This document shows positions 1 to 21,351 of a DNA stretch of 60,511 nt, one piece after another. The stretch is from a virus. Within the stretch, counting starts at the first letter, position 1, and each line of letters starts with the position of its first letter. The translations under genes were made by a program, and so were the position numbers. The stretch spans positions 1 through 60,511 of IMG/VR virus record IMGVR_UViG_3300044991_001911. One strand, written 5' to 3'. The notes under the pieces were generated by a model, which saw nothing but the letters and a program-made list of their open reading frames with translations, had not been told where the DNA came from and made no database searches.

Positions 1-1
1 T

Positions 2-904
2 TCAGGTTCAAGTGGTTCTTCAGGAACTTCAGGTTCAAGCGGTTCTTCAGGAACATCTGGTTCATCAGGAACATCTGGTTCAAGCGGTACATCAGGTTCA
101 AGCGGTACATCAGGTTCAAGCGGTTCTTCAGGAACATCTGGTTCATCAGGAACATCTGGTTCAAGTGGTACATCAGGTTCATCAGGAACTAGCGGTTCAA
201 GCGGTTCATCAGGAACTTCAGGTTCAAGCGGTTCTTCAGGAACTTCAGGTTCAAGTGGTTCTTCAGGAACTTCAGGTTCAAGTGGTTCTTCAGGTAAATC
301 AGGTTCAAGCGGTACATCAGGTTCTTCAGGAACTAGCGGTTCAAGTGGTTCTTCAGGAACTTCAGGTTCAAGCGGTTCATCAGGAACATCTGGTTCAAGC
401 GGTACATCAGGTTCATCAGGAACATCAGGTTCGAGCGGTTCTTCAGGAACTAGCGGAAGTTCAGGTTCAAGTGGTTCTTCAGGAACATCTGGTTCATCAG
501 GAACTTCAGGTTCAAGTGGTTCTTCAGGTAAATCAGGTTCAAGCGGTACATCAGGTTCTTCAGGAACTAGCGGTTCAAGTGGTTCGTCAGGAACTAGCGG
601 TTCAAGTGGTTCGTCAGGAACTAGCGGAAGTTCAGGTTCAAGCGGTACATCAGGTTTAAGTGGTTCTTCAGGAACTAGCGGTTCAAGTGGTTCTTCAGGA
701 ACTTCAGGTTCAAGTGGTTCTTCAGGTACATCAGGTTCATCAGGAACTAGCGGTTCAAGCGGTTCTTCAGGAACATCTGGTTCATCAGGAACATCTGGTT
801 CAAGTGGTACATCAGGTTCTTCAGGTTCAAGTGGTACATCAGGTTCATCAGGTTCGTCAGGAACTAGCGGTTCAAGTGGTTCGTCAGGAACATCAGGTTC
901 TGCA
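2..904 (+). repeat. Tandem Gly-Ser/Thr-Ser coding repeats
   Basis: Imperfect 9-nt and 18-nt units encode GSS, GTS and GKS triplets for about 900 bp. Codons alternate (tca/agt/agc, gga/ggt), so units are degenerate at DNA level while the peptide period stays exact. The region is prone to repeat-number change between isolates, and assembly length here may be unreliable. It ends where the non-repetitive globular domain starts (SATILNNVDN). Confidence 0.9.
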
Positions 905-1381
905 ACTATTTTAAATAATGTTGACAATTACGTAATAACTGCAACTGGAACATCAGGTGTTATTAATGGTGAGGTTAATTTAAGGTTTGATGGAAGTACT
1001 TTAAGAGTTACTGGTGATACTGCAATAACAGGAGCATTAACAGCGGCGTCAAAATCATTTGACATTCCCCACCCAACAAAAGAGGGGTATAGATTAAGAT
1101 ACGGTGTATTAGAGGGACCAGAACATGGAGTTTATTTTAGAGGTAAAGCAACTGATAAAGTAATTGAATTACCTGATTATTGGATTGGATTAGTCCACGA
1201 AGATAGTTTTACGGTAAACTTAACATCAATAGGATATCCTTGTGAAAACTATGTAGTTGAAGTTAAAGATAATAAAGTATTCATTGATAGTACTTGTGAT
1301 AATATTAATGTGTTCTACTTAATATATGCAGAACGTAAAGATGTTGAAAAAGTATTATTAGAATATAAAGCAATAATATAA
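2..1381 (+). CDS. Collagen-like phage fiber protein, 5'-truncated
   Basis: The gene is open from the left edge in the frame starting at base 2 and stops at 1379-1381, so the true start lies outside. About 300 residues are triplets of the form Gly-Ser-Ser, Gly-Thr-Ser and Gly-Lys-Ser, with glycine at every third position as in collagen. A globular end of about 155 residues follows, with the run HPTKEGYRLRYGVLEGPEHG and then ELPDYWIGLV. That end resembles a C-terminal domain I know from T4-like phage fibers and cyanophage structural proteins. The triplet region is probably a triple-helical shaft and the end a trimerisation or receptor domain. It has no proline, unlike animal collagen. The Ser/Thr-rich shaft lies beside a glycosylation locus and is a candidate substrate. 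Product class is confident; receptor role is inference. Confidence 0.85.
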   Translation, partial: SGSSGSSGTSGSSGSSGTSGSSGTSGSSGTSGSSGTSGSSGSSGTSGSSGTSGSSGTSGSSGTSGSSGSSGTSGSSGSSGTSGSSGSSGTSGSSGSSGKSGSSGTSGSSGTSGSSGSSGTSGSSGSSGTSGSSGTSGSSGTSGSSGSSGTSGSSGSSGSSGTSGSSGTSGSSGSSGKSGSSGTSGSSGTSGSSGSSGTSGSSGSSGTSGSSGSSGTSGLSGSSGTSGSSGSSGTSGSSGSSGTSGSSGTSGSSGSSGTSGSSGTSGSSGTSGSSGSSGTSGSSGSSGTSGSSGSSGTSGSATILNNVDNYVITATGTSGVINGEVNLRFDGSTLRVTGDTAITGALTAASKSFDIPHPTKEGYRLRYGVLEGPEHGVYFRGKATDKVIELPDYWIGLVHEDSFTVNLTSIGYPCENYVVEVKDNKVFIDSTCDNINVFYLIYAERKDVEKVLLEYKAII

Positions 1382-1386
1382 AAAAA

Positions 1387-1410
1387 GGGACTCTAAGTCC
1401 CTTTTTTTTT
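1387..1410. terminator. Bidirectional intrinsic terminator between convergent genes
   Basis: A 6-bp stem GGGACT/AGTCCC with loop CTA is flanked by six A on the left and nine T on the right, so it can end transcription from both sides. It serves the fiber gene on the plus strand and the glycosyltransferase gene on the minus strand, whose stop codon at 1409 lies at its edge. Confidence 0.85.
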
Positions 1411-3682
1411 AATCTTTAATTATTGGTAATGAGTTAAATACTTGTAGAGGCGTTATTGATTTTTGACAAATATGTTGTCTTTCGGTGTTTTTATAAACAG
1501 GACACCAATCCCAATCACCAGGATTAAATACTAATACAGGGTCATTCCAACATTTAATACAAACATTATTTGATACTCGTGTCACATTGGTTTGACATTC
1601 ATGACTATCTTCACTAAAACCTGATATCATAACTGTTTTTTTATTTAATGACCAATTAACCCAAGATAGTCCCGAACTTAAACCTACAAAAAATTCTGAA
1701 TGATATAAACAATTCATAACTTCATTCCAATCTTTAGTTGTGTTAACATGTACTCCATCTATTTTATAATCATTAAGGGATAATATCATAATTTCATAAC
1801 CAATTTCTTTTAACATTTTAGATAATGTTATCCAATTTTCTAAAACCCATTCTTTACAACCGGCAGTTGATTGTGGACCAAATACAACATATTTGTTTTT
1901 TATTGGTCTTTTAGATAATTTGAAATTAACACCATGATTAATTTCTTTGAAATCTAAACCTAAAATATCTGTTGCTGTTTTTTGTAGGGGAATTAAGTTT
2001 ACTTGATTTGGGTGCATATCAAATCTTTTCCATCCTGTTTTATCATCTTTAAACCATCCTAATTTATAGATAACGTCACAATCTGAAGAATGTCCTGGAT
2101 TAATAAATTCAATATTTTTATATGAATCTAAACCTTTGAACCATTCATTATGAAAAGTTGATAATACTACCTTACAATTTCTTTGTTTCATTAACTCAAC
2201 TGCATATGGTGACCAAGCAATAGTATCACCAATTGATTTGGATTCAAATCTGATTAAAACTTTTTTATTGTCTAAACTAAAATTTTCAACAACTTTACCA
2301 TTTATTTTAATTGTCCATGGAACATAATATTTTATACCACAAGAAGTCCACATATTGTTGGTTATGGTGTCTGAAAATCTAACTTTACCTTCACCATCAA
2401 TAAATTCAACAAAGTATTTATTATTGTGATTACCTTTAATTTCAACTCTTGGTCCATCAAAGTAAGTAATTATTGTTTTATTAGTGTCCTCAACTTTAAG
2501 AGTTTTTTCCAAAAATTCGTTAATTGTTTTTATCCCAATTTCTGCAACATGTTCCCAATTAAATTCTTTTCTAATAATTTCAGATTCTTCTAATGCTATT
2601 TGTTTATAGTGTTGGTGATTAGTAACTACATTCCACATCTGTTTACCTAAATCATTAAAGTCAGGTTCGTAGTAGTTTCCAATAGAATCGTTAAAATGAC
2701 TATAGGTACTGGCATCAACTGGTTTTTCACCCACAATTTTAACGGGTAAACCTTTACCTTCAGCAAATTCTAATTGACCTGAACAGTTTGAATAGATAGA
2801 TGGTGTACCACAAGCCATCGCTTCAATAAGTGGTAGGTTCCATCCTTCAGACCTTGCACATGATACAAACGCGTCACAAGATTTTAATATTTTAATATAT
2901 TCTTCTCTTGGAGGGAAATGTAATATTTTAATTCTGTCATCGTTTAATCCGTAATGTTCTAATCTTTCTTCCGTAGTTTTCATACCATCACCTGAAAATG
3001 GGTTATCAACAGAAATAATTAAATCAACTGGTTCATCTTTATCAAAAGTTTTAAGAAATGTCTCAATAATTTCTTTAATTGATTTTCTATAATCCCATCT
3101 ACCTGCTAAAAAGAATTTAAATCTTCCATCTGAGGTTAATTCATGTGAAGTATCTTCAGGAAAGAAAGTATTAACATCAACACCTTCAGGAACAACTTTA
3201 ATTTTACTTGGGTCATAACCTTGAGAGATAGTACAATCTCTTTGCCATTTTGATGGTACCCATAATTCATCAAATTCTTTTAATTTGTTGAAATAACCTT
3301 CAGGTTGTAATGTGGATTCCCAAACATTATATGCAATTTTTGGTCCATAATATTCATCGTAAAATAAATGGTGGTTTGTTTCACATAATACAATGTTAAC
3401 ATCAGGGAAAAAATCTTTTGATGGGTCTTCATAAATTTTATGATTACCTCTTGTTTTATCTGTATTCCAAAGGATTTGTTCGTACAGTAATTTTCTATCT
3501 GTATCGTTAAAATACGGCTCGTTATTATGTGGTTCAGGACTTATCCCATCCCAAGAACTACCTACAGTAAAATTTCTAACTTTTATCTGGGCATGTTTTG
3601 ATAAATGTCTAAAAAAGTCTCTTGTATGTTGATTATAACCTGTGTTCCCAATGTAAGAACCATGTGCAAATATTTTCTTCAT
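1409..3682 (-). CDS. GT4 glycosyltransferase fused to TibC-type O-heptosyltransferase
   Basis: The protein has 757 residues in two parts. Residues 1-400 form a GT-B group-1 (GT4) glycosyltransferase with the EGWNLPLIE motif (E279, E287). Residues about 400-757 match the bacterial autotransporter heptosyltransferase (Aah/TibC) family: SIGDTIAWSPY at 483-493, a GPQSTAGCKEW segment, a GLSSGLSW segment, and a C-terminal cysteine set C708-x2-C711-x15-C727-x11-C739. In TibC four cysteines with the same C-x2-C-x15-C start bind iron. TibC-family enzymes put heptose on Ser/Thr of surface proteins. A phage copy fused to a GT4 domain could build a sugar on virion Ser/Thr residues. It is divergent from the sugar gene run that starts at 3751. 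Family assignment is strong; substrate is inference. Confidence 0.85.
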   Translation of the reverse strand: MKKIFAHGSYIGNTGYNQHTRDFFRHLSKHAQIKVRNFTVGSSWDGISPEPHNNEPYFNDTDRKLLYEQILWNTDKTRGNHKIYEDPSKDFFPDVNIVLCETNHHLFYDEYYGPKIAYNVWESTLQPEGYFNKLKEFDELWVPSKWQRDCTISQGYDPSKIKVVPEGVDVNTFFPEDTSHELTSDGRFKFFLAGRWDYRKSIKEIIETFLKTFDKDEPVDLIISVDNPFSGDGMKTTEERLEHYGLNDDRIKILHFPPREEYIKILKSCDAFVSCARSEGWNLPLIEAMACGTPSIYSNCSGQLEFAEGKGLPVKIVGEKPVDASTYSHFNDSIGNYYEPDFNDLGKQMWNVVTNHQHYKQIALEESEIIRKEFNWEHVAEIGIKTINEFLEKTLKVEDTNKTIITYFDGPRVEIKGNHNNKYFVEFIDGEGKVRFSDTITNNMWTSCGIKYYVPWTIKINGKVVENFSLDNKKVLIRFESKSIGDTIAWSPYAVELMKQRNCKVVLSTFHNEWFKGLDSYKNIEFINPGHSSDCDVIYKLGWFKDDKTGWKRFDMHPNQVNLIPLQKTATDILGLDFKEINHGVNFKLSKRPIKNKYVVFGPQSTAGCKEWVLENWITLSKMLKEIGYEIMILSLNDYKIDGVHVNTTKDWNEVMNCLYHSEFFVGLSSGLSWVNWSLNKKTVMISGFSEDSHECQTNVTRVSNNVCIKCWNDPVLVFNPGDWDWCPVYKNTERQHICQKSITPLQVFNSLPIIKD

Positions 3683-3701
3683 TATTATGTGATTATTTTA
3701 G

Positions 3702-3733: not shown

Positions 3734-3750
3734 ATACTAACTAAAAAATA

Positions 3751-4761
3751 ATGAGACCAATAATAATTTTAGATGCATTTGTTACTGACAAACAAGAAGA
3801 AGGTATCTTAATAAATTTTATTGATTCGGTTAAAACAATAGGTGACGATTTATTATTAATGTCTAATACAACAACTTCAAAAGAAGTTCAAGATAAAGTT
3901 GATTATTTTTTCTATGATAAAAAAAATCAATTATTCAAAGAAAAATATTCAAAATATGATTATGTAAACTATTGGACACAGTACGATTGGTTTAAAGTTT
4001 CAAATTGTTTTCCTCATACTCAAAACCATGGATTATCTGTTTTAATTAGTTTATTTCGTTCGGTTAGAATGGCTAAAGAGTTGGGTTATACTCATTTTTA
4101 TAAAATGGAATATGACGCTAGATTAACTGAAAAAACTAAAATTAAAATTAAAGGATTAAATGATGAATGTATTTTAAGTGGTAAAAAGGGTGTTTTTTTT
4201 GTTGATAATCATGGGGACCATTCATCAATGTCAGTACATTATTTTTTCTGTGAGATTGATTATTTCTTAGATAATTTTTCGAATATAACTTGCGAACAAG
4301 ATTATATTAATTTTTTAGAATCAGAATTTGGTAATCGTGATTTTTTAATAATGGAAAGATTCATGTATGAAAATGTTAAAAAATTAAATCCTAATGAGAT
4401 TTATATTAAAGAAGGATTTTTTACTGAATTTGATAGTACTCTTTGGAATACAAAACAAACTAGAGTTTATGATGATAAAAAATATAAAGAATGTGTAACA
4501 AAATTTTATTTAAAACAAGACCATCCTGATGAGATTGTGATTTATAGTAAAAATGTAAAATCAGAACCTGACTTTAGAAGAATACTTGTTAAATTTAATG
4601 ATGGTACTGAAAAAGAAATAATTCAAGAATTTGGGTCATATGGGGCTTGGTCATATATCGCTTTACCAAATAATGTTGAAAAAATGTTAGTATATGATAG
4701 AGATGAACTATTATTTGAAGAATATTTTAAGGACATAATAAACGTAATTGACTTTCATTAA
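3751..4761 (+). CDS. Glycosyltransferase-like protein, paralogous family member 1
   Basis: This 336-residue protein shares its layout with three others in the locus (4763, 7554, 8565). An N-terminal alpha/beta domain starts with a hydrophobic strand (IIILDAFVTDKQEEG), then VDYFFYDKKN, and a strand ending in KMEYDARL that resembles the acidic site of GT-A enzymes. The last 100 residues are beta-rich and look like a binding module. I do not recognise a named family, but such proteins occur in sugar clusters of large phages. First gene of a plus-strand run with near-zero spacing. Role as a sugar-modifying enzyme is inference from fold-like features and context. Confidence 0.55.
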   Translation: MRPIIILDAFVTDKQEEGILINFIDSVKTIGDDLLLMSNTTTSKEVQDKVDYFFYDKKNQLFKEKYSKYDYVNYWTQYDWFKVSNCFPHTQNHGLSVLISLFRSVRMAKELGYTHFYKMEYDARLTEKTKIKIKGLNDECILSGKKGVFFVDNHGDHSSMSVHYFFCEIDYFLDNFSNITCEQDYINFLESEFGNRDFLIMERFMYENVKKLNPNEIYIKEGFFTEFDSTLWNTKQTRVYDDKKYKECVTKFYLKQDHPDEIVIYSKNVKSEPDFRRILVKFNDGTEKEIIQEFGSYGAWSYIALPNNVEKMLVYDRDELLFEEYFKDIINVIDFH

Positions 4762-4762
4762 C

Positions 4763-5719
4763 ATGGAAAAAAATAAAGAATTGATTTTAATATTAAATTA
4801 TTCTCCTGATAACAAAAGACAAGAATTATTAAGAACTTTAGTTAATGATATTAATAATGATGAATTTGATATTATGATTGCAACACATTCGTTTGTTCCA
4901 CAAGATATTTCGGATAAAGTGGACTACATTGTTTATGAAAAGGAAAATTTGTTATTAACTGATATTAAGTCAAAATATAAGATGGTTTTCGCTAATAGTG
5001 ATTTTACTGTCAAGACAACTGAATGTAAAAAATATAATCATGGGTTTACGTGCTTAAGATTACTTTTATTTGGATTAAAAAGCGCAAAAAATTTAGATTA
5101 TGTTAAAGTCCATTTTTTTGAGTACGATTGCGAAATTAAAAGTGATATTGAAATTAAAGACAATTCTAAACTTTTAGACATACACCCAATCATTTGGTAT
5201 AAATGGAAACATTTTTCGTATCCAACCGCGCCAGTTTCATATAATTTATTGAAAATATCGGATTCATGGTTTAATACATCAAAAGAAAAATTAATGAATT
5301 ATTTTAATGGTGATATGACAAATGCCGCAGAAGAATATCACATGGGGTTAATAAATGAAAGTGATAATGTTTTAACAAAAGACATGAAACTTTTAGAAAA
5401 TATTGGAGTAAAAATACAATTAAATAGTGATATTACGGAATACCAATGGGTGGTGCCTGTTTATGATAATAATTCAAAAAAGATGGTATTATTTTCTTGG
5501 GGTCAAGATGAAATAAAAAATATGGAAATTAAACTAATTGTTAATGATTCAATTATACTTAATTACACGGTAAAACCTGGTTATTGGATTTTAAGAGATA
5601 TTGGTGATATTGACAGTATTCAAAGTATTATAATATTAGTTAACAATACACTAAGAAATTCAATAGATTTTAATAAAACAGATAAAAATATTTATATTAA
5701 TAAGAATACAATTAATTAA
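4763..5719 (+). CDS. Glycosyltransferase-like protein, paralogous family member 2
   Basis: The protein has 318 residues from the ATG at 4763, one base after the previous stop; an upstream in-frame ATG at 4748 lies inside the previous gene and is less likely. It shares with its paralogs the opening LILILNYSPDNKRQELLRTL, the motif VDYIVYEKENLL, and FFEYDCEIKSD near residue 125, then a beta-rich end containing IGDIDSIQSIIILVN. The 7554 gene has the same end (IGDINNIDSIITLVN), so these two are the closest pair. Catalytic role is not proven by any motif I can name. Confidence 0.55.
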   Translation: MEKNKELILILNYSPDNKRQELLRTLVNDINNDEFDIMIATHSFVPQDISDKVDYIVYEKENLLLTDIKSKYKMVFANSDFTVKTTECKKYNHGFTCLRLLLFGLKSAKNLDYVKVHFFEYDCEIKSDIEIKDNSKLLDIHPIIWYKWKHFSYPTAPVSYNLLKISDSWFNTSKEKLMNYFNGDMTNAAEEYHMGLINESDNVLTKDMKLLENIGVKIQLNSDITEYQWVVPVYDNNSKKMVLFSWGQDEIKNMEIKLIVNDSIILNYTVKPGYWILRDIGDIDSIQSIIILVNNTLRNSIDFNKTDKNIYINKNTIN

Positions 5720-5721
5720 AA

Positions 5722-6366
5722 ATGGCACAAGGAGTACATAAAATAACTGAAGATTTTGAGAAAGCATTATGCGATTACACAGGAGCTCCTCACGCAATTG
5801 CGTTAGATAATATGAGTAACGCATTATTCTTAGCGTTATACTACGAAAAGAATATAAAGAAAACATTAACTGGTGATACCATAGATTGTCCATCAAAGAC
5901 ATATCCATCGGTACCATGTGAAATAATTCACGCAGGGTTAAAAGTTAATTTTACACCGGTTGAGGGTGATAAGATTAAAGGGGCTTACGAACTATCGCCA
6001 AGTAATGTTTGGGACTCAGCGTTAAGATTCACAGCTGACATGTATGTCCCAAAATCACATATGTGTGTTTCATTCACAGGCCCATATAAAACTTTAAAAT
6101 TAAGTAAAGGTGGCGCGATTTTAACCGATGATTATCAAGCGATGTTATGGTTTAAACGAGCAAGATTTAGCGGAAGAAGAGAATGTTCATATCATGATGA
6201 CAACTTTGATATGTTAGGATGGAATTTCTATATGATGCCTGAGTTATCGGCAAGAGGGATATTAATGATGACACAATTTTATAATTTAGACGGAACTAAA
6301 AAACATAATGAGGATTTAGAATTACCATATCCTGACTTATCAAAATACGAAATTTACAAAAAATGA
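5722..6366 (+). CDS. Short DegT/DnrJ/EryC1-type sugar aminotransferase
   Basis: The 214-residue protein matches the PLP-binding half of nucleotide-sugar aminotransferases. YTGAPHAIALDNMSNAL fits the GxxxAxxxxSGTxAL region, then comes FTGPYKTLKLSKGGAILTDD, where the family has the cofactor lysine before GGA(I/M)(L/V)T(N/D), and GWNFYMMPELSARGILMM fits the GxNxRMxxxxAA region. The usual length is 370-400 residues, so the C-terminal small domain is missing. The gene runs straight into the next (overlap 4 nt), with no sign of a frameshift, so the short form appears natural. With the NeuD-type acyltransferase at 6974 it could make an N-acylated amino sugar. Confidence 0.75.
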   Translation: MAQGVHKITEDFEKALCDYTGAPHAIALDNMSNALFLALYYEKNIKKTLTGDTIDCPSKTYPSVPCEIIHAGLKVNFTPVEGDKIKGAYELSPSNVWDSALRFTADMYVPKSHMCVSFTGPYKTLKLSKGGAILTDDYQAMLWFKRARFSGRRECSYHDDNFDMLGWNFYMMPELSARGILMMTQFYNLDGTKKHNEDLELPYPDLSKYEIYKK

Positions 6367-6977
6367 AAAATTATACTTTTACAGAAAATTGGTTTAACGA
6401 TGACGGGCTATCAATTTTAAATGAATTAGGGGTTAAAAAAGAATTACACATTCTTGAAGTTGGTTCTTTTGAAGGAAAATCAACCATATGGTTTTTGGAT
6501 AATATTTTACAAAATAAAAATTCAACCATTACTTGTGTTGACCCTTGGATGAATTATAGTCAAGACCATGATAGTTTAAATTCCTATAATAACGAAGACA
6601 ATGAATGGATGTTAACCGAGAGAAAAACTAAAGAAATATTTTTACATAATATTATTGAAAGTGGTGATAGTGATAAAGTTATTATACGACAAGGGTTTTC
6701 TAATAAGATTTTACCATCTTTAATTACGGAACAAAAAATGTATGATATAATTTTTATTGATGGTAATCACACCGCCCCATATGTTATGATGGATAGTATA
6801 ATGTCTTGGGGGGTATTAAAAAAAGGGGGTATTCTTATTTTTGATGACTATACTTGGGGATTAGATAGAACAACTACTTTGAGACCAAAAGAATCGGTGG
6901 ACTATTTTATGTTAACTTTTGCGGATTATATTACTGAATTATATTCAAACTATCGTAAAATAATTAAAAAATTATGA
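6363..6977 (+). CDS. Class I SAM-dependent methyltransferase
   Basis: The 204-residue protein has the SAM-binding glycine motif ILEVGSFEGKSTIWF (residues about 30-45), an acidic end of strand 2 in ITCVDPW, FIDGNHTAPYVMMD, and LKKGGILIFDDYTWG. This order is that of the Methyltransf_24 type found in sugar clusters. It overlaps the preceding and following genes by 4 nt each, so it is translationally coupled. The methyl acceptor is probably a sugar, by context only. Confidence 0.8.
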   Translation: MKNYTFTENWFNDDGLSILNELGVKKELHILEVGSFEGKSTIWFLDNILQNKNSTITCVDPWMNYSQDHDSLNSYNNEDNEWMLTERKTKEIFLHNIIESGDSDKVIIRQGFSNKILPSLITEQKMYDIIFIDGNHTAPYVMMDSIMSWGVLKKGGILIFDDYTWGLDRTTTLRPKESVDYFMLTFADYITELYSNYRKIIKKL

Positions 6978-7552
6978 TGATAAAAGTATTAATTGGAAAT
7001 GGGGGTCATGCGAGAGAAGTTATGGCTCAAATGGGGTGTAAATTAGACCGATTTGTTGATGAACAATATGTTGATGATGATACACAACCCTTGTCTAAAT
7101 TAGACCCTACCAAACACATTGTAATGATTGCAATTTCAGATTCTAAAGATAGATTTGACATTTCACAAAGATTACCCGAGGGGATTCAATTTTTCACTTT
7201 TATACATCCAACCGCATTAATAATGGAAGATGTTGAAATTGGGGAGGGAAGTTTTGTTGGGGCTTATTCAATACTCACAACAAATATAAAAATAGGGAAA
7301 CATTCAATATTAAATAGGGGTAATCACATTGGACACGATTGTAGAATTGGAGATTATTTTAGTGCAATGCCTGGTGCAATTGTTTCAGGTAATGTTACAA
7401 TTTATAGTTTAGTTTATATGGGTAGTAACTCATCAATACGAGAAAAGTTATCAGTTCATAGTTTAGCTACGATTGGTATGAACTCCGCAGTTGTTAAACA
7501 CATTGAAGAGGGTGGTGTTTATGTTGGATGCCCTGCAAAAAAAATTAAATAA
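6974..7552 (+). CDS. NeuD/PglD-type sugar acyltransferase
   Basis: The protein has 192 residues. It opens with an N-terminal Rossmann-like strand and glycine motif (IGNGGHAREVM), followed by a left-handed beta-helix with hexapeptide repeats (IGEGSFVGAYS, IGKHSILN, IGHDCRIGDY) and ends VYVGCPAKKIK. This is the full architecture of sialic acid/bacillosamine acetyltransferases, which acetylate a 4-amino sugar made by a DegT-type aminotransferase like the one at 5722. ATG codons at 6974 and 6977 are adjacent; either could start. Confidence 0.88.
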   Translation: MMIKVLIGNGGHAREVMAQMGCKLDRFVDEQYVDDDTQPLSKLDPTKHIVMIAISDSKDRFDISQRLPEGIQFFTFIHPTALIMEDVEIGEGSFVGAYSILTTNIKIGKHSILNRGNHIGHDCRIGDYFSAMPGAIVSGNVTIYSLVYMGSNSSIREKLSVHSLATIGMNSAVVKHIEEGGVYVGCPAKKIK

Positions 7553-7553
7553 T

Positions 7554-8552
7554 ATGAAAGAATTAATTTTAATTGGTGCACATTGTCCCGATGACGAGAG
7601 AGAATCCCTATTAAATGAGTGTGTTAATTCACTACAAAAATGTCGTAATGAATATGATATTTTAATTTGTAGTCATACTGAAATACCATCATATATTACT
7701 AAAAAAGTTGATTATGTTTTTTATGATAAGAATAATGATTTAATTACTGATTTGAAATATCTAAACCAACCTTGGTTTTCACCAATTGAAGGAATGACTA
7801 TCCTATCAACATATATCGGTCAAAATAGTACATATTTGGCAGTTTATAGATTGGTTACGGCAGGATTAGGATTTGCAAAAATGTTTAAATACAAAAAGGT
7901 ACATTATATTGAGTATGATACAATTATGAATGATTTATCGGAATTATATGATAATTCAAAATTGTTGGATGAATATGATAATGTTGTTATTCAAAAAGAA
8001 GAAAGGGGTTATGAAGAAAACATTGCATGGCCTATTGGTAATTTCATGTCATTCAAAGTGGATTCAATAAATGAATTATTAACATCTTACGATAAAGAAA
8101 AATTATTAGAAATTTTATTTAATAGTACATCAAAAACTAATGAAAAAATTACAAATGACATTATGAATATGAATGGTAATACCATTCATATTAAAAATTA
8201 TGACCATGTTAAATTAAAAGATATAAAATTTGCATTATCTAATAATACTTCTAAAGAAACTATGAATTATTGGACAGTCCCATTTTATAACACAAAAGAA
8301 AATAAAGTTTCTGTAATAGTTTGGAACAACAAAGATGACGAACCAATAAATGTTAATTTTATTGTTAACAATGAAAAAATTATAACATTTAAAGAAGTTA
8401 ATAAATTTGAATGGAAAATGGATGAAATTGGTGATATTAACAATATTGATTCAATAATCACATTAGTTAATGGAAAAAAGAAAAATGAAATAAAATTTGA
8501 TAAGAATTTACGAGAAATTTTTAAAAAAACAAATTATACAATTTATACTTAA
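7554..8552 (+). CDS. Glycosyltransferase-like protein, paralogous family member 3
   Basis: I start this 332-residue protein at the ATG at 7554, one base after the previous stop. An in-frame ATG at 7491 would add 21 residues inside the upstream gene. It begins KELILIGAHCPDDERESLLN, has VDYVFYDKNNDLI and KVHYIEYDTIMNDL near residue 125, and ends with the beta module containing IGDINNIDSIITLVN. It is the nearest relative of the 4763 gene. Function is inferred as sugar transfer or modification. Confidence 0.55.
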   Translation: MKELILIGAHCPDDERESLLNECVNSLQKCRNEYDILICSHTEIPSYITKKVDYVFYDKNNDLITDLKYLNQPWFSPIEGMTILSTYIGQNSTYLAVYRLVTAGLGFAKMFKYKKVHYIEYDTIMNDLSELYDNSKLLDEYDNVVIQKEERGYEENIAWPIGNFMSFKVDSINELLTSYDKEKLLEILFNSTSKTNEKITNDIMNMNGNTIHIKNYDHVKLKDIKFALSNNTSKETMNYWTVPFYNTKENKVSVIVWNNKDDEPINVNFIVNNEKIITFKEVNKFEWKMDEIGDINNIDSIITLVNGKKKNEIKFDKNLREIFKKTNYTIYT

Positions 8553-8564
8553 AAAAACAAAATA

Positions 8565-11147: not shown

Positions 11148-11176
11148 ATAGTATCAAAAAACAAAAAATAATATAG

Positions 11177-13714: not shown

Positions 13715-13855
13715 TTTACAATAGTTTCTCTTTAATAACTTCAATTGAGGGAGCTAATTTATGTCTAAATGTCTTAATTAAAATAACAGAAATAACATCT
13801 TTATTAAAATTATAATCATTCTATCTTTTATTTTGTATAAAAACCAATATTAGGT

Positions 13856-13863
13856 TATTTATA
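13856..13863 (+). promoter_or_regulatory. Late-type promoter motif TATTTATA
   Basis: Perfect motif 16 nt upstream of the ATG at 13880. A TTTTG lies about 20 nt further upstream, but the other TATTTATN sites show no such element, so I do not count it. Confidence 0.55.
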
Positions 13864-13879
13864 GTGTAAGGGAAAAATT

Positions 13880-16800
13880 ATGGCTTGTACTTATTTAGAA
13901 TTAACGATTAGTAGTATTGATATTGCTGCTGCAACATCAAACAGTAATGTGTATCCTTTTTTGGATAACACTGTATTTGTTGACTATTATGATTGTTATG
14001 GTAATGTAGTTACGGAACCGTTTACGGTTGCAGGTCCTTATACTGCGTCAGCTTGTACCGATTATTTTACATATGGGTATCCATACCTTTATTATTATAA
14101 TAGTGATATAGTTGTTAGTGCAATTAATAGTACAGAAGCACCTGGTGTCCCTTGTATTCCTCCTACACCATCACCAACGGAAACTCCGACTCAAACGCCA
14201 ACAAATACACCAACTCAAACAGAGGCTGGATGTATTTATCTTCAGAAATTTAATTATAGTACAATTAGTTGTTATACCGCCTGTACTATTGATAATTCTG
14301 TTGACGTATATTCAAATTATAACCCGCCAATAGTAGGTCTATCAATATTTTATGATAATAATAGTCCTTGTACAAATGTTTTACCAGATGGGTATTATAG
14401 TTCTGCAACAGGTATTGCACCTTATGGTTGTTATACTATTAGTGGTGGGACAGGTCTTCTTATAGACTATTATCCTTGTACAATTGGAAAATGTTTTACT
14501 CTTGAAATCCCTAATGGGACTGGAGTCTATCCATCGGAGCTTACGGATGGTGTTGATGATTTATATGTAGATTATCTCAATAATTTTGGGGATACTATAT
14601 TATTAAATATGGTTACATCAATGCCATATAATACTACAATAAATCCTGGTTATAACACATATTACATATGTACCGACTCAGGGGGATATCCATATTTTCG
14701 TTATGGGCCTTTAGGGTCAACGGTGACTTTAACAAATGCAATTATATTTGCAGGAGATGGTTGTACTGCAGATGGTGATTGTGAGCCACCACCACCGACA
14801 CCTAGTCCAACACCAACTAATACTGCAACTCCAACAAATACACCAACTAATACTACAACCCCAACAGTAACACCAACTAATACTGCGACTCCAACAGTAA
14901 CACCAAGTGAACCATACGATATTTATTTATTTGAGGAATGTAGTAATCCTTCAAATCAATTTAGATTTGAAAATGTCCCTGGTACATTATCTGTTGGTGA
15001 TGTATATTCAATTACAGGGCCTTATTTTAATGGCATTGCCACGGTAATAACTTATTCTGCTATTGGAACTGTATATCCATCTATTGGTAGTGTGTTTATT
15101 GGTCAAATGGCGTGTCCAACACCAACACCAACCAATACATCTACACCCACCACAACACCAACAAACACCACAACACCAACAAACACTATAACACCAACAA
15201 ATACTGCAACACCGGGTAACACTCCAACACCATCCCCAACACCTTTTGCATGTGAATATAGTCAATTTTGTTTTTACACAACTTTGCCATCATTATCGGG
15301 TTATAGTGGAAATTATACCGCAGGGTCAACATATAATGGTTTTCCGAGTTATTCAGGTGACGGTACGAGTGCTGGTGTAATTTATTATTATAGTTCTATC
15401 ACAACAACATATTGGTGTTTATCTAATAGTTTAGGAGGTACTTGTTATTTAACAGGTGCTAGTCCATGTAAATCAGATTGTCCTGACATTTCAGCCAATA
15501 GTTTTACTACAGGTATTTGTCCAACGCCAACGCCAACAGCGGTTAATTGTTCTATTTTTGATTTTACAGCATATTTTGATTGTGATTGGGAACCATTACC
15601 AACACCAACGCCAAGTATTGCATGTGACGATGTGAATTTTACATTTGATACTTTAGGGGTGACGCCAACACCTACACCAACGGGTGATATTTGTAATGGT
15701 GTTGGAATTTCATTTAGTATGAGTGGATATACTCCAGCCGTAACACCAACAGTTACTTTAACACCTTCGGTTACTTTAACAAGAACTGTTAATGCGTCAG
15801 GACAAGCAACATTCCAAATGTTAGATGAAACATTTACTTGTGTGTCGGTTAAAGTACTTATAGATTGTCAATCAGGTCAAGAATACTATGTTACAAATAG
15901 TCTTGTGTATTTGGGAGTACCTGTTGTCATTGGAATGAGTATGTTAGTTGAAATTGCTGGTGGATTGCATTGTGTTACTTATATTAGTGATAATGATAAT
16001 ATATCGTCAAATGCAAATGTTAATAGTATACTTCAGATTTATGCGGTTTGTAGTAATTGTAATGTATATCCAACACCAACACCTACAGTAACGTCTAGTT
16101 CTACATCTACGCCAACTCCAACCCAAACTAAAACACCTACGAACACTCCAACAAATACTGTAACACCAACAACAACAGCAACGATAGGTACTACACCACC
16201 TCCAACACCTAATCAAACATTAACTCAAACACCAACTCAGACAACAACACCAACTGTAACACCGACACCTTCAACAACACCTAATTATGTTTATGTGTAT
16301 GAAAGTTGTAATCCAATATCACCAAATACTCTTAAAACACAAATGATTCAAGATGTAAAATCTCCTTTGGTGACAACGGAAGGACAATGTTTTAATGTTT
16401 ATGGAACTTGTTGGAATTATCTTGGAAGATTTAATACAGGTTATGCTGCACCATCAACGGTTTTCCCATTAACTTCTAGTGTTGATTTCTTTGCGGGATA
16501 TACTTCAAATGTTTTTAATGATTGTAATAGTTGTTTAACTTATACTCCACCAGCACCTGTACAAACTTATAACGTAGTTGGTCCGTATGATGGTAATTCA
16601 GCAGCTTGTTTTGCAGGTAATTCCGCAGGAGCTGTATTAGGGTTTTATACTTTTACTAATGGAATTACAATTGGTTCCCAACTTTATAATAATCCACTGT
16701 TTGGGTCGCCAACATTAGTGACAACACCTGGTTGGTATGCAGCTTCGGGGTCATTCTTGTCTTTTTACGGTTCATTTAGAATTGATAACACAGGTACTAT

Positions 16801-17215
16801 TGTAGAAATAGGTAATTCTTGTGTTGGAATTATAGTTGGGCCAATAGGTCCAATAGGGGGTGGAACAGGTTCAAAAATCATATGTGATTTATTATATCGT
16901 CAAGGATTCTTACCTAAAGAAATTTGGGAAGCGGATGAGAAGTTTGGTAGATTAATGTTAAAAACAAATAGAGAAGGATTGTTTGGTTATTTAACTTGGG
17001 CAAAACCTGTGGTTAATTTCTTAACTAAACATCCACAATATTCTAAATATTTCTATTTAATAACTAAACCTTGGTCTGAACACATGGCTTATATGATGGG
17101 AGTATTACCTGAAGATAATAAACTTGGAAAATTGATACATTATGTTGGTAATAAATTCTCTGTCATGGTTTATAAATTAATAACATCTAAAAAAAGAAGA
17201 AAAAAAAATAAATAA
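13880..17215 (+). CDS. Giant multi-module virion protein with Thr/Pro linkers
   Basis: The 1111-residue protein starts MACTYLELTISSID and alternates cysteine-containing beta modules of 70-120 residues with linkers of the type TPTNTPTNTTTPTVTPTNT. The last 115 residues are different: helical, basic and Trp-rich (KIICDLLYRQGFLPKEIWEA, AKPVVNFL, ITKPWSEHMAYMMG) and end in KKRRKKNK. Similar helical ends occur in tail proteins of marine T4-like phages and probably anchor or fold the fiber. The stop overlaps the next ATG by one base. Role as fiber or decoration is inferred from composition and position. Confidence 0.7.
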   Translation: MACTYLELTISSIDIAAATSNSNVYPFLDNTVFVDYYDCYGNVVTEPFTVAGPYTASACTDYFTYGYPYLYYYNSDIVVSAINSTEAPGVPCIPPTPSPTETPTQTPTNTPTQTEAGCIYLQKFNYSTISCYTACTIDNSVDVYSNYNPPIVGLSIFYDNNSPCTNVLPDGYYSSATGIAPYGCYTISGGTGLLIDYYPCTIGKCFTLEIPNGTGVYPSELTDGVDDLYVDYLNNFGDTILLNMVTSMPYNTTINPGYNTYYICTDSGGYPYFRYGPLGSTVTLTNAIIFAGDGCTADGDCEPPPPTPSPTPTNTATPTNTPTNTTTPTVTPTNTATPTVTPSEPYDIYLFEECSNPSNQFRFENVPGTLSVGDVYSITGPYFNGIATVITYSAIGTVYPSIGSVFIGQMACPTPTPTNTSTPTTTPTNTTTPTNTITPTNTATPGNTPTPSPTPFACEYSQFCFYTTLPSLSGYSGNYTAGSTYNGFPSYSGDGTSAGVIYYYSSITTTYWCLSNSLGGTCYLTGASPCKSDCPDISANSFTTGICPTPTPTAVNCSIFDFTAYFDCDWEPLPTPTPSIACDDVNFTFDTLGVTPTPTPTGDICNGVGISFSMSGYTPAVTPTVTLTPSVTLTRTVNASGQATFQMLDETFTCVSVKVLIDCQSGQEYYVTNSLVYLGVPVVIGMSMLVEIAGGLHCVTYISDNDNISSNANVNSILQIYAVCSNCNVYPTPTPTVTSSSTSTPTPTQTKTPTNTPTNTVTPTTTATIGTTPPPTPNQTLTQTPTQTTTPTVTPTPSTTPNYVYVYESCNPISPNTLKTQMIQDVKSPLVTTEGQCFNVYGTCWNYLGRFNTGYAAPSTVFPLTSSVDFFAGYTSNVFNDCNSCLTYTPPAPVQTYNVVGPYDGNSAACFAGNSAGAVLGFYTFTNGITIGSQLYNNPLFGSPTLVTTPGWYAASGSFLSFYGSFRIDNTGTIVEIGNSCVGIIVGPIGPIGGGTGSKIICDLLYRQGFLPKEIWEADEKFGRLMLKTNREGLFGYLTWAKPVVNFLTKHPQYSKYFYLITKPWSEHMAYMMGVLPEDNKLGKLIHYVGNKFSVMVYKLITSKKRRKKNK

Positions 17216-17433
17216 TGGCGGTACAGGTAACAATTAGTTCAATAACAGGTCAATCACCTTATGATATCTACGTATGTCAAGCAAATGGTACGGGATGTTT
17301 TTACTATTCAACAACATCTGTAATACCATATGTTTTTGATATACCAGCGCCATATAATACATCACCTTCGTATATGTTAAAAGTTATCGATTCAAATAAC
17401 TGTGTCATAGTAGGAACAACAATAGTACAATAA
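17215..17433 (+). CDS. Single-module paralog of the following fiber N-terminus
   Basis: The 72-residue protein consists of one beta module (VQVTISSITGQSPYDIYVC ... YMLKVIDSNNCVIVG). The same module, about 40% identical by eye, forms the first 70 residues of the next gene (LVTITSITANTPAEIYYC ... YLIKIIDTNGCIDGE). Both start on the base that ends the previous stop codon. It looks like a tandem duplication in which only the second copy carries the long Thr/Pro stalk, so this may be a free tip or connector subunit. Confidence 0.65.
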   Translation: MAVQVTISSITGQSPYDIYVCQANGTGCFYYSTTSVIPYVFDIPAPYNTSPSYMLKVIDSNNCVIVGTTIVQ

Positions 17434-18719
17434 TGGGACAACTAGTAACAATAACATCAATAACTGCAAACACACCGGCCGAAATTTACTATTGCGGGCC
17501 TACTAGCGGAGATTGTGTATATGTTGCAACAATCTCGGTAGTACCATTTACGTTTGAAGTTCCTGACCCTGTAGACAATTCTACTTATTTAATTAAAATT
17601 ATTGATACTAACGGATGTATTGATGGTGAATTTGTTTATATCACACCAACTCCGACCGCTAGTGTTACACCTACGATGACACAAACCCCTACAGTCACAT
17701 CAACTAGCACATCAACACCAACTCAAACACCAACAAATACTACAACAAACACTGCAACACCAACAAACACTGCAACTCAAACACCTACTCCTTCAGTAAC
17801 ACCAATTGCTTCTTCACATTTTATTGGTCAAAATACTTTTACCACTTCGGCAAACACTTGTAGTGATACATTATCTTTAACTGTATTATACACTTACATA
17901 AATGAGGCGAATTTAATTCCTGTTATTGGAGTTACTGTTTATCAAAATTTATATGATGGAGTTTTATACACACCATATGATGGTCAAGATAGATTTATTC
18001 TAATGTATTGGGGAGGTCTTTATTACGCAGTTCAAATAAACTTATCTGGTCAAATTATGAGTTATGTACTTTGTACTAATTTAATTACTCCTACGCCAAC
18101 TATTACGTCAACACCGACTAATACTCCAACTATTGGTCAAACGCCAACGCCAACTATTACCCAAACTCAAACATCTACAAGTACTCCAACTAATACTCAA
18201 ACATCAACAAACACTCCGACTAATACCGAGACACCAACCAACACTCCGACTAATACTGAAACGCCAACAAACACTCCAACTAATACAGAGACACCAACAC
18301 CAACCGAAACAATGACACCAACACCAACTGAAACAATAACACCAACACCTTCGGTTACTATAGGATTAACACCCACCTCAACTCCGACTAATACAGAAAC
18401 ACCAACTAATACTCCTACAAATACACCTACAAATACAGAAACTCCAACTCAAACTCAAACACCAACAAGGTCTTATTATGTGTATAGTTTAGGTTTTGGT
18501 GCAAATGAAATTGATGCTTGTAATGATTATATTTCATCACCAAGTACAATTTATGGAACAGTCTCGGGAGGAATCGGACCAAATATTGGAGAGTATTTAT
18601 ACTCTAATTCAGGATTAACAATCCCTACAGTGAATGGTTATTATTCAAACGGAACTGCGATATATGTTGTGACAGGAGGGTTAGGGCAAATCACTTCTTC
18701 AGACCCATCAGGATGTTAA
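17433..18719 (+). CDS. Virion fiber with long Thr/Pro stalk
   Basis: The 428-residue protein comprises the N-terminal module shared with the 17215 gene, a short Thr/Pro linker, a beta module (about 130-215), a stalk of about 130 residues built from units like NTPTNTETPT and PTETMTPTPTET, and a C-terminal domain of about 80 residues with SNSGLTIPTVNGYYSNGTAI. The stalk is more than 40% Thr and about 25% Pro, like mucin linkers, and carries no Lys or Arg apart from its ends. Expected to be extended and heavily O-glycosylated if the phage enzymes act on it. Confidence 0.7.
   Translation: MGQLVTITSITANTPAEIYYCGPTSGDCVYVATISVVPFTFEVPDPVDNSTYLIKIIDTNGCIDGEFVYITPTPTASVTPTMTQTPTVTSTSTSTPTQTPTNTTTNTATPTNTATQTPTPSVTPIASSHFIGQNTFTTSANTCSDTLSLTVLYTYINEANLIPVIGVTVYQNLYDGVLYTPYDGQDRFILMYWGGLYYAVQINLSGQIMSYVLCTNLITPTPTITSTPTNTPTIGQTPTPTITQTQTSTSTPTNTQTSTNTPTNTETPTNTPTNTETPTNTPTNTETPTPTETMTPTPTETITPTPSVTIGLTPTSTPTNTETPTNTPTNTPTNTETPTQTQTPTRSYYVYSLGFGANEIDACNDYISSPSTIYGTVSGGIGPNIGEYLYSNSGLTIPTVNGYYSNGTAIYVVTGGLGQITSSDPSGC
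18091..18474 (+). repeat. Thr/Pro stalk coding repeats
   Basis: Degenerate tandem units of 12, 24 and 30 nt (acNccaacNaacacNccNac type) encode TPTNTPTNTETPT. Similar shorter arrays occur around 12460-12540, 14800-14905, 15110-15245, 16070-16285, 17640-17805, 19115-19260 and 19420-19545. They are prone to recombination between fiber genes. Confidence 0.85.
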
Positions 18720-18780
18720 TAACAATAAAATCTACAGATAAAATAACTAAAGATTATACTTATAATAAAAGGAATTAATA

Positions 18781-21351
18781 ATGGCAGCAGTACCAATAGA
18801 ATTTTGTAATTGTTTTGAAGTCTTTGTACCAATAGATGACGCTCAAAGTGGTGGTAATCCATTGTATATTGGGTATTTACAATGTAATGGATTTTACACT
18901 AATAGTAGTCTTTACACATTTCCTTTAATAGACGGTGCAGATGGATATACACTTTATCTTTGTGTTGGTAATGGGTTGACTCCTACAACACGATATGGGT
19001 TTACCGGTCCAAATGTTTATGTACCTGCAGTAACATTTACAAATTTAGAAACTAATTGTACTACATTTATTGATTGTTATGGGTCTCCTCCCGAACCAGA
19101 ACCGTCGTTATCACCAACTCAAACACCAACTCAAACTCCAACTAACACAGGAACACCAACTCAAACGCCAACTTTAACTAGAACACCAACTAATACTCCA
19201 ACTAATACAAGTACTCCAACCAATACAAGAACACCTAACCCAACACCATCTACAACACCAATATCATGTGGACAAGGTGTTACAACAGGTAATTACTATT
19301 ACACGGATTGTTGTGGGAATTTTATACAAGGAACTGAGGTAGGTATTTTGGTTACATTAAATTATGGTAGTTCATCTAATGGAGTTACTAAATTATTTAG
19401 CCCGGCATCAGTAAATTGTCCAACACCAACACCAACAGGAACTCAAACACCAACACCAACTAATACTAATACTCCAACAGTAACACCAACAAGTACAACC
19501 ACACCTACATTAACAAGAACTCCAACACAGACACCAACAAATAGTCAAGTTCGTAAACTTAAAAATAATTGTGATGTTTTTACTTTATTTGAAATGGGAA
19601 TTACTTGTAACCCTATTGTACAACCGAGTAATTCAAAGTCGTTAGATGGTATTTTATCTTTAATTGTGACAGGAGGGACAAGTCCTTATACATATAATTG
19701 GGCCCGTGGGCAAAGAAGCCAAACATTGGTAGGGATGGCTCAGGGTGATTATGAGGTAACGGTGGTTGATTACTATGGTGATTATACTGCAACAACAATA
19801 TGTAGTCTAATGGCGGCAACTAATGCTCCAACTCCAACACCTACGACAACTCCAACACCTACGTCACCATTGAAATGTGTTAACCTTTGTTTAATAACTT
19901 ATGACAGTAGTGGGTTGGCAACTGAAGGGCCTTATCAATTTGTATGTAATGGATATAAAAATGGTAAATTTACTTGGAGTGATAGTAGAAATGAAATAAT
20001 ATGGAGTTTAACTAATAATAGATGGGAAATTTATGTTCTTGGTACAACTGAGTTATTTACATTACAGGATAGTATACTTGCAAGTACAAATACTTCTGAA
20101 ATACCTAATTCTTCATGGAATTATTATGGAGGAAAAGCAATCGGAACAATCTCAGTGACTAAAGGGACTTGCCCTACAACAATACCTTTACAAATTTCAT
20201 TAATGGCAGAAAATAGTAGTTGTAATACCGGAACTAAATGTAATGGTGGAATCACGGTTTCAGCGTTTAATGGAGCAGCTCCATACTTGTATTCAATTGA
20301 TGGTGGTAACACATATCAAAGTAATAATTATTTTGGTGGATTATGCCCTAAATCTTATACAATAACAGTACAAGATGCTCTTGGTACCGTAGTTACACAA
20401 ACAATTACAGTATCTTATGACGAAATACCTGTAACTTACCAATTAACAGTAAGCGCAAATACTGACAATGTTGTTAGTAGTGTAACACCAAACTTTAATT
20501 CAAGAACAACAACAGTACAAATTATTACAGTTCCTGAATTACCTATAGGTGTTGAAATAGAATTTGGATTAGTGTTATCATCACAAAAAACTTATAATGG
20601 GCCAGGTACTGGAACAATTACGGATACATTCAATGTAACACAAGGAGGTGTTGTTAAAACACCAACTTTAACACAATCAATATCTGATGGGGCAACAACA
20701 AGACCTAATTGTAGTCCGAATGAACAAACAATAATTTCTGAAGCTGACACCTATAATTTAAAGGTAAGTAGAACATCTCCTGTGATTATTCTTGATACCT
20801 CAACATTGTCAATTGTGGATGGACAAGAAGCTAATAATTGTTTGACTAATTTAACACAACTGATATATGCACAATTGATTACACCATCAATATTAGGATG
20901 TTCTTGTTGTGATGTGGTTGCGGATTCACAATTCTTAACAATTAACGAAAATACTTTAGATTATACTCCAGGGTCTGATGATATTGTTTTATCAGTAAAT
21001 GCAAAATCAAATGTCTATTGTGCAAACACTGAAGAAGCTTCAGTAGTTTTTAATCGTTTTGTAGGAGGTTCAGGTGAATATCAAATGACAAGTACTTATT
21101 ACACCGGATGTGGAGCTGCTTTAGCAGGGTCGTTTGTTGATGTTACAGGAAGTAACACATACACATCAGTACCTAATGGACTTAACTATGTTGCAATTAG
21201 AGACAAAAATGACATATCAAATGTTGTTTGTTTAGCGGTTGAGGTTGGTTGTACTTATGGTGGAGGTTACTACTGTGATTATGGTCAAGGATGTGTTTTT
21301 CAATTAGACCCTTGTCCTTCTGACGTAATCAATTGTAGTCTTTTAGAATAA
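18781..21351 (+). CDS. Giant virion protein with SprB-like repeats
   Basis: In this 856-residue protein two N-terminal beta modules are joined by Thr/Pro linkers (TPTQTPTNTGTPTQTPT). Then come modules with the SprB-repeat pattern: TGGTSPYTYNWARGQRSQTL then GDYEVTVVDYYGD (about 300-340), and CNGGITVSAFNGAAPYLYSI then SYTITVQDALG (about 485-550). SprB repeats are typical of Bacteroidota surface adhesins such as the gliding protein SprB. The C-terminus is Cys-rich (CDYGQGCVFQLDPCPSDVI). A phage fiber that copies a host adhesin repeat could use the same carbohydrate ligands. It starts after a 61-bp gap. Confidence 0.7.
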   Translation: MAAVPIEFCNCFEVFVPIDDAQSGGNPLYIGYLQCNGFYTNSSLYTFPLIDGADGYTLYLCVGNGLTPTTRYGFTGPNVYVPAVTFTNLETNCTTFIDCYGSPPEPEPSLSPTQTPTQTPTNTGTPTQTPTLTRTPTNTPTNTSTPTNTRTPNPTPSTTPISCGQGVTTGNYYYTDCCGNFIQGTEVGILVTLNYGSSSNGVTKLFSPASVNCPTPTPTGTQTPTPTNTNTPTVTPTSTTTPTLTRTPTQTPTNSQVRKLKNNCDVFTLFEMGITCNPIVQPSNSKSLDGILSLIVTGGTSPYTYNWARGQRSQTLVGMAQGDYEVTVVDYYGDYTATTICSLMAATNAPTPTPTTTPTPTSPLKCVNLCLITYDSSGLATEGPYQFVCNGYKNGKFTWSDSRNEIIWSLTNNRWEIYVLGTTELFTLQDSILASTNTSEIPNSSWNYYGGKAIGTISVTKGTCPTTIPLQISLMAENSSCNTGTKCNGGITVSAFNGAAPYLYSIDGGNTYQSNNYFGGLCPKSYTITVQDALGTVVTQTITVSYDEIPVTYQLTVSANTDNVVSSVTPNFNSRTTTVQIITVPELPIGVEIEFGLVLSSQKTYNGPGTGTITDTFNVTQGGVVKTPTLTQSISDGATTRPNCSPNEQTIISEADTYNLKVSRTSPVIILDTSTLSIVDGQEANNCLTNLTQLIYAQLITPSILGCSCCDVVADSQFLTINENTLDYTPGSDDIVLSVNAKSNVYCANTEEASVVFNRFVGGSGEYQMTSTYYTGCGAALAGSFVDVTGSNTYTSVPNGLNYVAIRDKNDISNVVCLAVEVGCTYGGGYYCDYGQGCVFQLDPCPSDVINCSLLE

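Follow-up and report, generated by a model that had tools for sequence, protein, structure and literature searches.

Collagen hydroxylation and glycosylation are carried out by lysyl hydroxylase/glycosyltransferases (LH3; L230 in mimivirus). The collagen-like stalk of BclA in the Bacillus exosporium carries O-glycans (excerpts of PMC11952670), and in mycobacteriophages, phage glycosyltransferases modify virion proteins at capsid and tail-tube C-termini (Freeman et al. 2023, as cited in excerpts of PMC12619734). In the BAHT family (TibC and AAH; TIGR04414; structures 4RAP and 4RB4), roles have been assigned to Asp110 (catalytic) and to Thr226, Lys230, Arg286, and Trp305 (sugar binding) of TibC and to an iron finger (excerpts of PMC4358343). 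Here we describe a gene cluster in a 60.5-kb virus record (IMG/VR record IMGVR_UViG_3300044991_001911; "the window" denotes this whole stretch), which contains a Gly-Ser/Thr collagen-like fiber gene, a convergent gene for a fusion of a GT4 glycosyltransferase with a TibC-type O-heptosyltransferase-like domain, and nine tightly packed plus-strand genes of accompanying enzymes (Table 1). We propose, with a probability of about 0.7, that it represents phage-encoded O-glycosylation of the collagen-like virion fiber.

The GT4 half of the fusion protein matches the Pfam family Glycos_transf_1 (E 2.1e-16), and its C-terminal half reaches 205.4 bits with the TIGR04414 model, above the curated cut-off of 200, and retrieves TibC (4RAP, E 4.8e-33) in a PDB search. 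Judged from sequence, the assignment of the C-terminal domain to the BAHT family holds, in agreement with the preliminary description of this locus, which had read the gene as a GT4-TibC fusion. In the structural model (17 sequences, pLDDT 83.7 with a fall near residues 545-563, pTM 0.55), residues 401-757 superpose on residues 22-390 of 4rap_A (Z 32.6, rmsd 2.8, 344 aligned) and contain the TibC fold with its N-terminal β-barrel and C-lobe, while residues 2-392 match the chlorella-virus glycosyltransferase 3oy2 (Z 33.3). Asp110, Thr226, Lys230, and Trp305 of TibC correspond to D486, T606, K610, and W674, and the four cysteines of the iron finger are present (C708, C711, C727, and C739). The catalytic Asp is conserved in 89 of 89 rows and the four Cys positions in 87, in a set from which near-duplicates were not removed and to which the window and its identical counterpart belong.

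The window enzyme thus resembles the BAHT enzymes in family score, fold, the Asp, Lys, Trp, and Thr residues, and the four-Cys finger, as well as in the location of its gene close to that of a long Ser/Thr-rich repeat protein. It differs from them in the fusion to GT4 (and to more domains in relatives), in being phage-encoded, in the loss of Arg286, and in its partner, which is a Gly-Ser/Thr collagen-like ORF and not an SLS autotransporter. Since neither Arg286 nor an autotransporter partner is found, we regard it as a BAHT variant and not as a plain member of the family. With the mycobacteriophage systems it shares phage-encoded glycosyltransferases and a proposed virion-protein target, but it includes a TibC-type enzyme and, as the putative target, a collagen-like fiber. 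The likeness to BclA concerns the acceptor, with a collagen-like stalk as the proposed O-glycan carrier, on a virion and not on a spore. Among the records and excerpts returned by literature searches, no paper on phage BAHT or on collagen-directed phage enzymes was found.

Relatives of the fusion are numerous. One IMG/VR pattern scan yielded 100 confirmed members of the family, of which 80 were retained; a 145-kb IMG/VR contig carries the fusion gene at 100% identity, and contigs of up to 321 kb hold relatives of a gene neighboring it. Among the 37 matches listed, Streptomyces and Rhodococcus phage glycosyltransferases align to the GT4 half only. In the Microcystis phage Mel-JY01 (PP395634.1), the fusion (1226 aa as deposited) aligns, in two pieces and at 44% identity, to 99% of its counterpart in the window, and a GTS/GSS collagen ORF (2-3052) lies upstream of it, with one ORF in between. 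The deposit labels this fusion "methyltransferase FkbM", for which Pfam gives no support, and annotates antisense ORFs (1-651 and 739-2298, minus strand) over the plus-strand collagen ORF; a similar antisense ORF (1-927, minus strand) overlies the collagen gene of the window.

The distribution of the enzyme was compared with that of collagens in the jumbo phages marked by BP, the working name of a 737-aa protein downstream of the cluster that has no PHROG or Pfam match. Loci were sampled around BP (79 loci; a second set of 80 rows largely overlaps the first), and the co-occurrence table comprises 58 BP records of at least 60 kb, with TibC detected by TIGR04414 and collagen by PF01391. Eight near-duplicates were removed (L099, L101, L102, L109, L155, L158, L161, and L162; L-numbers are labels of loci or records from relatives), and others were kept and handled by the tree test only. 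Collagen is present in 24 of 26 TibC-containing records vs 8 of 32 records lacking TibC (raw Fisher p 1.8e-7, computed over relatives that are not independent). Along the BP tree, 11 changes are counted for TibC and 13 for collagen. Of the pairs differing in TibC, 11 are independent, and in these the collagen difference is concordant in 7.2 on average and opposite in 0.0 (median sign-test p 0.016). Records of at least 75 kb give the same median p (0.016), with both genes in 22, TibC only in 1, collagen only in 6, and neither in 17.

The collagens measured from TibC-containing jumbo loci have Ser/Thr fractions of 0.88-1.00 at the X and Y positions of the triplets. The gene in the window runs past its edge, so that only the C-terminal part of the fiber is seen, and the preliminary description of it as a Gly-Ser-Thr collagen-like fiber stands in this form; in L003, 1229 aa are visible (Ser+Thr 0.97/0.99 at X/Y), still cut by the contig end. 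Among 22 jumbo-type TibC loci (near-duplicates omitted; L041 included, though BP was not demonstrated there), a Ser/Thr collagen lies within 5 kb of TibC in 15, and on the opposite strand in all 15; in the window the two genes are separated by 28 bp.

The preliminary description had pointed to a different acceptor, namely five fibers with Thr/Pro stalks. Four such ORFs are found instead, the first of them weak (best 40-residue T+P 0.57), and the putative fifth, BP, has no Thr/Pro stretch (0.35). If a Thr/Pro-rich ORF is defined by 40 residues with T+P of at least 0.65, one is present near BP in 26 of 26 records with TibC and in 30 of 32 without it, the two others being L110, which is cut at BP, and L147 (0.55). 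Because they are equally common with and without TibC, the stalks do not track the enzyme and were rejected as the tracked acceptor.

The strongest argument for a collagen-type acceptor is provided by bacterial gene pairs. Bacterial loci came from genome_contigs, where a scan gave 10 loci (several being phage contigs), from 369 genomes in the same class as Methylobacter luteus (2 above cut-off), and from 301 genomes of its order (15 above cut-off); among 395 genomes from the phylum to which G082 belongs, TibC was found only in the center genome itself. The copies were split by TIGR04414 score into phage-like (303-327 bits, with L310 at 298 and L302 at 301) and classical (654-663 bits), and a partial TibC, L353 (209 aa, 113 bits, no repeat neighbor), was excluded from the comparison of 11 phage-like with 7 classical loci. 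In 10 of the 11 distinct gammaproteobacterial loci with phage-like TibC, the gene of a Gly-Thr/Ser-triplet protein lies 25-157 bp away. All ten triplet proteins have a secretion-type leader by eye; seven are encoded upstream of TibC and in the same direction, one is encoded downstream, and two convergently, which is the arrangement of the window. The eleventh locus (L348) encodes a poly-Ser/Thr-tract protein with a similar leader about 440 bp from TibC. In contrast, none of the 7 classical TibC copies in the same order has a Gly-Thr/Ser-repeat neighbor, and SLS-type repeats adjoin 3 of them. In a tree of the domain (88 rows, quick method, unrooted, with L124_1343 as a misplaced outlier), all classical copies fall into a single clade, the bacterial enzymes paired with repeats fall into two, and Gly-Thr/Ser-repeat pairing is found on several phage and bacterial branches. 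The TibC gene of M. luteus is situated amid ordinary chromosomal genes, which we take to be queA- and mfd-like; in this species (L303), TibC is encoded at 7851-9137 and the neighboring repeat protein at 6947-7798.

Co-occurrence, adjacency, and the bacterial gene pairs support a link between the enzyme and a substrate, and the likely acceptor is the Gly-Ser/Thr collagen-like fiber and not the Thr/Pro stalks. We infer the presence of the fiber in the virion, the catalysis, the donor, the order of the sugars, and the existence of a glycan. In the proposed mechanism, which would operate in the cytoplasm of an infected cell, the TibC-type domain would add the first sugar to Ser/Thr residues of the long fiber, with an ADP-sugar, probably ADP-heptose or one like it, as donor. 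Extension of the glycan would fall to the GT4 part of the fusion and to the GT-A-like paralogues, and its decoration to the aminotransferase-, acetyltransferase-, and methyltransferase-like proteins.

T4-like relatives often have the fusion, or GT4 and TibC as two genes, between neck-type genes and the tail sheath. Among 37 T4-like loci with at least 5 kb upstream (including the near-duplicates L050/L051, L016/L061, and L078/L173, and L068, which shows no sheath), 8 have a Ser/Thr collagen and 13 a 2-oxoglutarate (2OG)-Fe(II) oxygenase (PF13640). The oxygenase follows the type of the collagen: among TibC loci with an array, it is present in 4 of 4 lineages with Pro-containing collagen (X = Pro 0.22-0.77 by locus; loci with such collagen include L014, L032, and L078) vs 0 of 23 lineages with Ser/Thr collagen (p 6e-5; lineages were clustered by TibC likeness, which is not a phylogenetic correction), or, by locus, in 9 of 9 vs 0 of 32. 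Outside the TibC loci, the Pro-type L198 and L203 show neither TibC nor an oxygenase in the stretch, and L232, whose repeats are mixed and whose stretch likewise has no TibC, carries an oxygenase. The division is not exclusive, as oxygenase-like genes are located near TibC in L044 and L282, which come from the two TibC-containing records without collagen, and the collagens of L013-L015 contain Thr too.

The Pro-type loci resemble the LH3 system in that an oxygenase accompanies the collagen, in some cases with a GT4-GT25 protein, such as the 786-aa product of L030 252-2612(+). They differ in that GT25 is matched only in part, over 38 residues (33 bits, cut-off 24), and the weak 2OG-oxygenase match fused to it is below cut-offs, and no oxygenase was seen in the window phage. 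On a simple reading, the hydroxyl for glycosylation is either already present (Ser/Thr) or made by hydroxylation. We tentatively suggest that phages may use two chemical routes, TibC acting on Gly-Ser/Thr repeats and a 2OG oxygenase acting first on Pro-containing collagen, and that Gly-Thr/Ser pairing may reflect a broader BAHT role in which the autotransporters constitute one clade. In L014 (2791-5840), the oxygenase and the Pro/Thr-type collagen are accompanied by a radical-SAM/SPASM protein, by a product of 409 aa that matches FkbM weakly, and by one of 329 aa outside the known families. Beside TibC in L044, a jumbo contig without collagen, there is a row of 2OG-oxygenase-like and, by eye, sulfotransferase-like ORFs (13148-19899).

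Several observations weigh against glycosylation of the collagen-like fiber. Kinship alone could give related genomes both traits, and in records of at least 135 kb (both, TibC only, collagen only, and neither in 11, 0, 3, and 10) the pairs are too few (p 0.125). Seven of the 22 jumbo-type TibC loci have no Ser/Thr collagen in the stretch read, although some of these records have a collagen 37-50 kb away, and L087 and L090 (84 and 66 kb) contain TibC with no collagen match in the record. Conversely, L142 and L146 (72 and 94 kb) contain a Ser/Thr collagen (0.59-0.86) without TibC and have no close TibC-containing relative in the tree, their length being the sole excuse. L147 also has a Ser/Thr collagen without TibC, but at the very start of the contig, whose end could have cut TibC off. 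Among the remaining collagen-bearing records that lack TibC, the repeats of L150 and L255 are of a Lys/Asn/Pro type (X-position Ser/Thr 0.12-0.26), and L117, L156, and L256 are close kin of TibC-containing records and may be incomplete. In the T4-like group, a Ser/Thr collagen lies within 5 kb in just 6 of the 37 loci, and 16 have neither it nor the oxygenase in the stretch, although one of these (L009) has collagen farther off in its record. Finally, the sugar-binding Arg286, needed in TibC, is absent from the fusion, which has V655 at this site, and is replaced in 107 of 121 phage TibC domains (Arg in 14).

The loss of Arg286 in the window and in most phage domains means that the donor may differ. 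Whether the donor is a nucleotide sugar other than heptose is a separate question, compatible with modification of the collagen-like fiber, and a positive answer seems to us possible but doubtful. It would agree with the absence of a recognized heptose-synthesis gene from the window stretches scanned (no whole-record search was aimed at such genes), on account of which the initial reading of a self-contained system lacks support. On the other hand, Thr226, Lys230, and Trp305 are mostly retained among phage TibC domains. Moreover, L237, a distant relative, encodes GT4, TibC (196.5 bits, just below cut-off), and an HldE-like pair, all ahead of the tail sheath; the best match of its 244-aa protein is rfaE domain I (113 bits, curated cut-off 345) and that of its 131-aa protein rfaE domain II (101 bits, cut-off 181.5). 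The TibC of L237 itself lacks Arg286, and the locus favors an ADP-heptose-like donor at least in this phage, whereas heptosyl activity of the window enzyme is an extrapolation from its family. Two further candidates for heptose-synthesis genes were discarded, a 132-aa ORF of L060, nearest to NMN adenylyltransferases, and a 612-aa ORF of L016, a nucleotidyltransferase/HAD protein.

It is unlikely that the enzymes mainly glycosylate another virion protein, be it the Thr/Pro stalks, the sheath of the tail, or some other structural component. The stalk genes do adjoin the cluster in the window, the T4-like enzyme is encoded just upstream of the sheath, and 16 of the 37 T4-like loci have neither a Ser/Thr collagen nor the oxygenase; but the stalks are as frequent without TibC as with it, and the bacterial partners are Gly-Thr/Ser-repeat proteins. 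An equally improbable explanation is that the enzymes remodel the host surface polysaccharide, e.g., to block superinfection, and that their proximity to fibers reflects a shared variable region of host interaction. Glycosyltransferases in the host-recognition region of pelagimyophages are read in this way, as acting on host O-chains (excerpts of PMC7029224), and the T4-like enzyme gene is found in a variable slot flanked by neck-type genes and the sheath, and is missing from many sheath loci. However, TIGR04414 enzymes of known activity modify proteins (excerpts of PMC4358343), TibC follows the collagen gene and not the region in general, and the bacterial pairs are outside any phage region. 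Furthermore, unlike a full envelope-polysaccharide pathway, the cluster enzymes of the window are unlikely to contain membrane segments (maximum 19-residue hydropathy 1.57). The tail sheath was rejected as an acceptor, as full-length sheaths have a Ser+Thr content of 0.17-0.23 (no control set) and many sheath loci lack TibC. Glycosylation of a virion protein, as suggested initially, is still the best reading, with the substrate moved from the stalks to the collagen-like fiber.

Table 1. Features of the window (in scripted analyses, ORFs were taken from a simple longest-ORF caller)
Feature	Coordinates	Strand	Evidence and remarks
Gly-Ser/Thr (GSS/GTS) collagen-like fiber, C-terminal part	2..1381	+	PF01391 E 2.1e-44; PHROG tail-fiber families
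GT4 + TibC-type O-heptosyltransferase-like fusion	1409..3682	-	GT4 ~1-395, TibC-type ~401-757
PAR1, GT-A-like paralogue	3751..4761	+	alignment of 29 members; fold inferred from PAR4
PAR2, GT-A-like paralogue	4763..5719	+	ATG start 4763; alignment of 29 members; fold inferred from PAR4
DegT/DnrJ-like aminotransferase, 214 aa	5722..6366	+	PF01041 E 3.7e-13
Methyltransf_24 methyltransferase	6363..6977	+	PF13578 E 1.2e-19
NeuD/PglD-like sugar acetyltransferase	6974..7552	+	TIGR03570 160.0 bits, below cut-off 160.8; Hexapep E 4e-13
PAR3, GT-A-like paralogue	~7554..8552	+	start picked by similarity to relatives; alignment of 29 members; fold inferred from PAR4
PAR4, GT-A-fold glycosyltransferase-like, C-terminal β domain	8565..9479	+	model pLDDT 90.4
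Hexapeptide CatB/Vat-type acetyltransferase-like	9476..10024	+	PF00132 E 2e-8; phrog_16087 E 1.6e-47
FkbM-type methyltransferase	10021..10863	+	PF05050 E 1e-9
ORF with LamG-type domain, short Thr/Pro stretches	11177..13714	+	PF13385 E 1e-14; best 40-residue T+P 0.57
Thr/Pro-stalk ORF	13880..17215	+	best 40-residue T+P 0.78
Thr/Pro-stalk ORF	17433..18719	+	best 40-residue T+P 0.75
Thr/Pro-stalk ORF, weak SprB-repeat match	18781..21351	+	T+P 0.78; PF13573 below cut-off
BP (working name), 737 aa	21378..23591	+	group marker; 79 loci in one set, 80 rows in another; tree
Two neighboring tRNA-Met (CAT) genes	59468..59627		

Adjacent genes among the nine accompanying the fusion overlap or are at most 13 bp apart. 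The four proteins PAR1-4 can be aligned with one another and with relatives, so that their description as paralogues is upheld; their assignment to glycosyltransferases is less direct, as none is above a curated Pfam cut-off or has a PHROGs or NCBIfam match, and comes from the model of PAR4 (29 sequences). Residues 1-212 of this model adopt a GT-A fold, with GlcAT-S as the best match (Z 13.9, rmsd 2.9, 172 aligned), tied in the structure comparison with nucleotidyltransferases; the top Foldseek rows include glycogenin, LH3, and a PBCV-1 capsid glycosyltransferase (E 2e-4 to 4e-4). D120, a candidate acidic donor/metal-site residue within an EYD-like motif, is invariant in all 29 members. The predicted aminotransferase is DegT-like but short, spanning about half of the profile (length 360); its Lys motif, presumably the pyridoxal phosphate site, is retained in 16 of 16 relatives. 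The two acetyltransferase-like proteins and two methyltransferases of the initial account were recovered, the CatB/Vat-like protein being far below the CatB/Vat NCBIfam cut-offs and above that of Pfam Hexapep. Among the replication genes of the window phage are those for a DNA primase, an SbcC/SbcD-like nuclease, and a sigma factor.

Some jumbo relatives carry the TibC domain at the C-terminal end of a much larger protein. The 1914-aa product of L281 7700-13444(-) resembles a glycan assembly line in a single polypeptide, with an FkbM domain, a DXD sugar transferase, a second methyltransferase, a polysaccharide pyruvyltransferase, a GT4 domain, and finally GT9/TibC. A shorter second GT9 protein (312-315 aa) adjoins TibC in several jumbo relatives (L281 13441-14382(-), PF01075 49.6 bits; L284 5174-6112(+); L282 12073-13020(-)). 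A conserved ORF of 121-124 aa with a start of the KIEVSIGEIVDKLSIL type immediately follows TibC in L290 (18403-18768), L291 (17027-17401), L295 (9237-9611), L025 (12256-12630), and L041 (12301-12675).

Few phages are known to have glycosylated virions, and enzyme-acceptor pairs have rarely been assigned on sequence grounds; the present analysis names an enzyme family together with the likely acceptor and the key residues. The TibC-fusion family is common among environmental viruses, and the cultured phage Mel-JY01 and the Methylobacter genomes are open to direct tests. If the proposal is correct, some very long phage fibers would be glycoproteins, with consequences for receptor binding, stability, and evasion of host defense, and the oxygenase route, if real, would be a viral parallel to the maturation of animal collagen. 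The BAHT enzymes would then have a second natural class of substrates.

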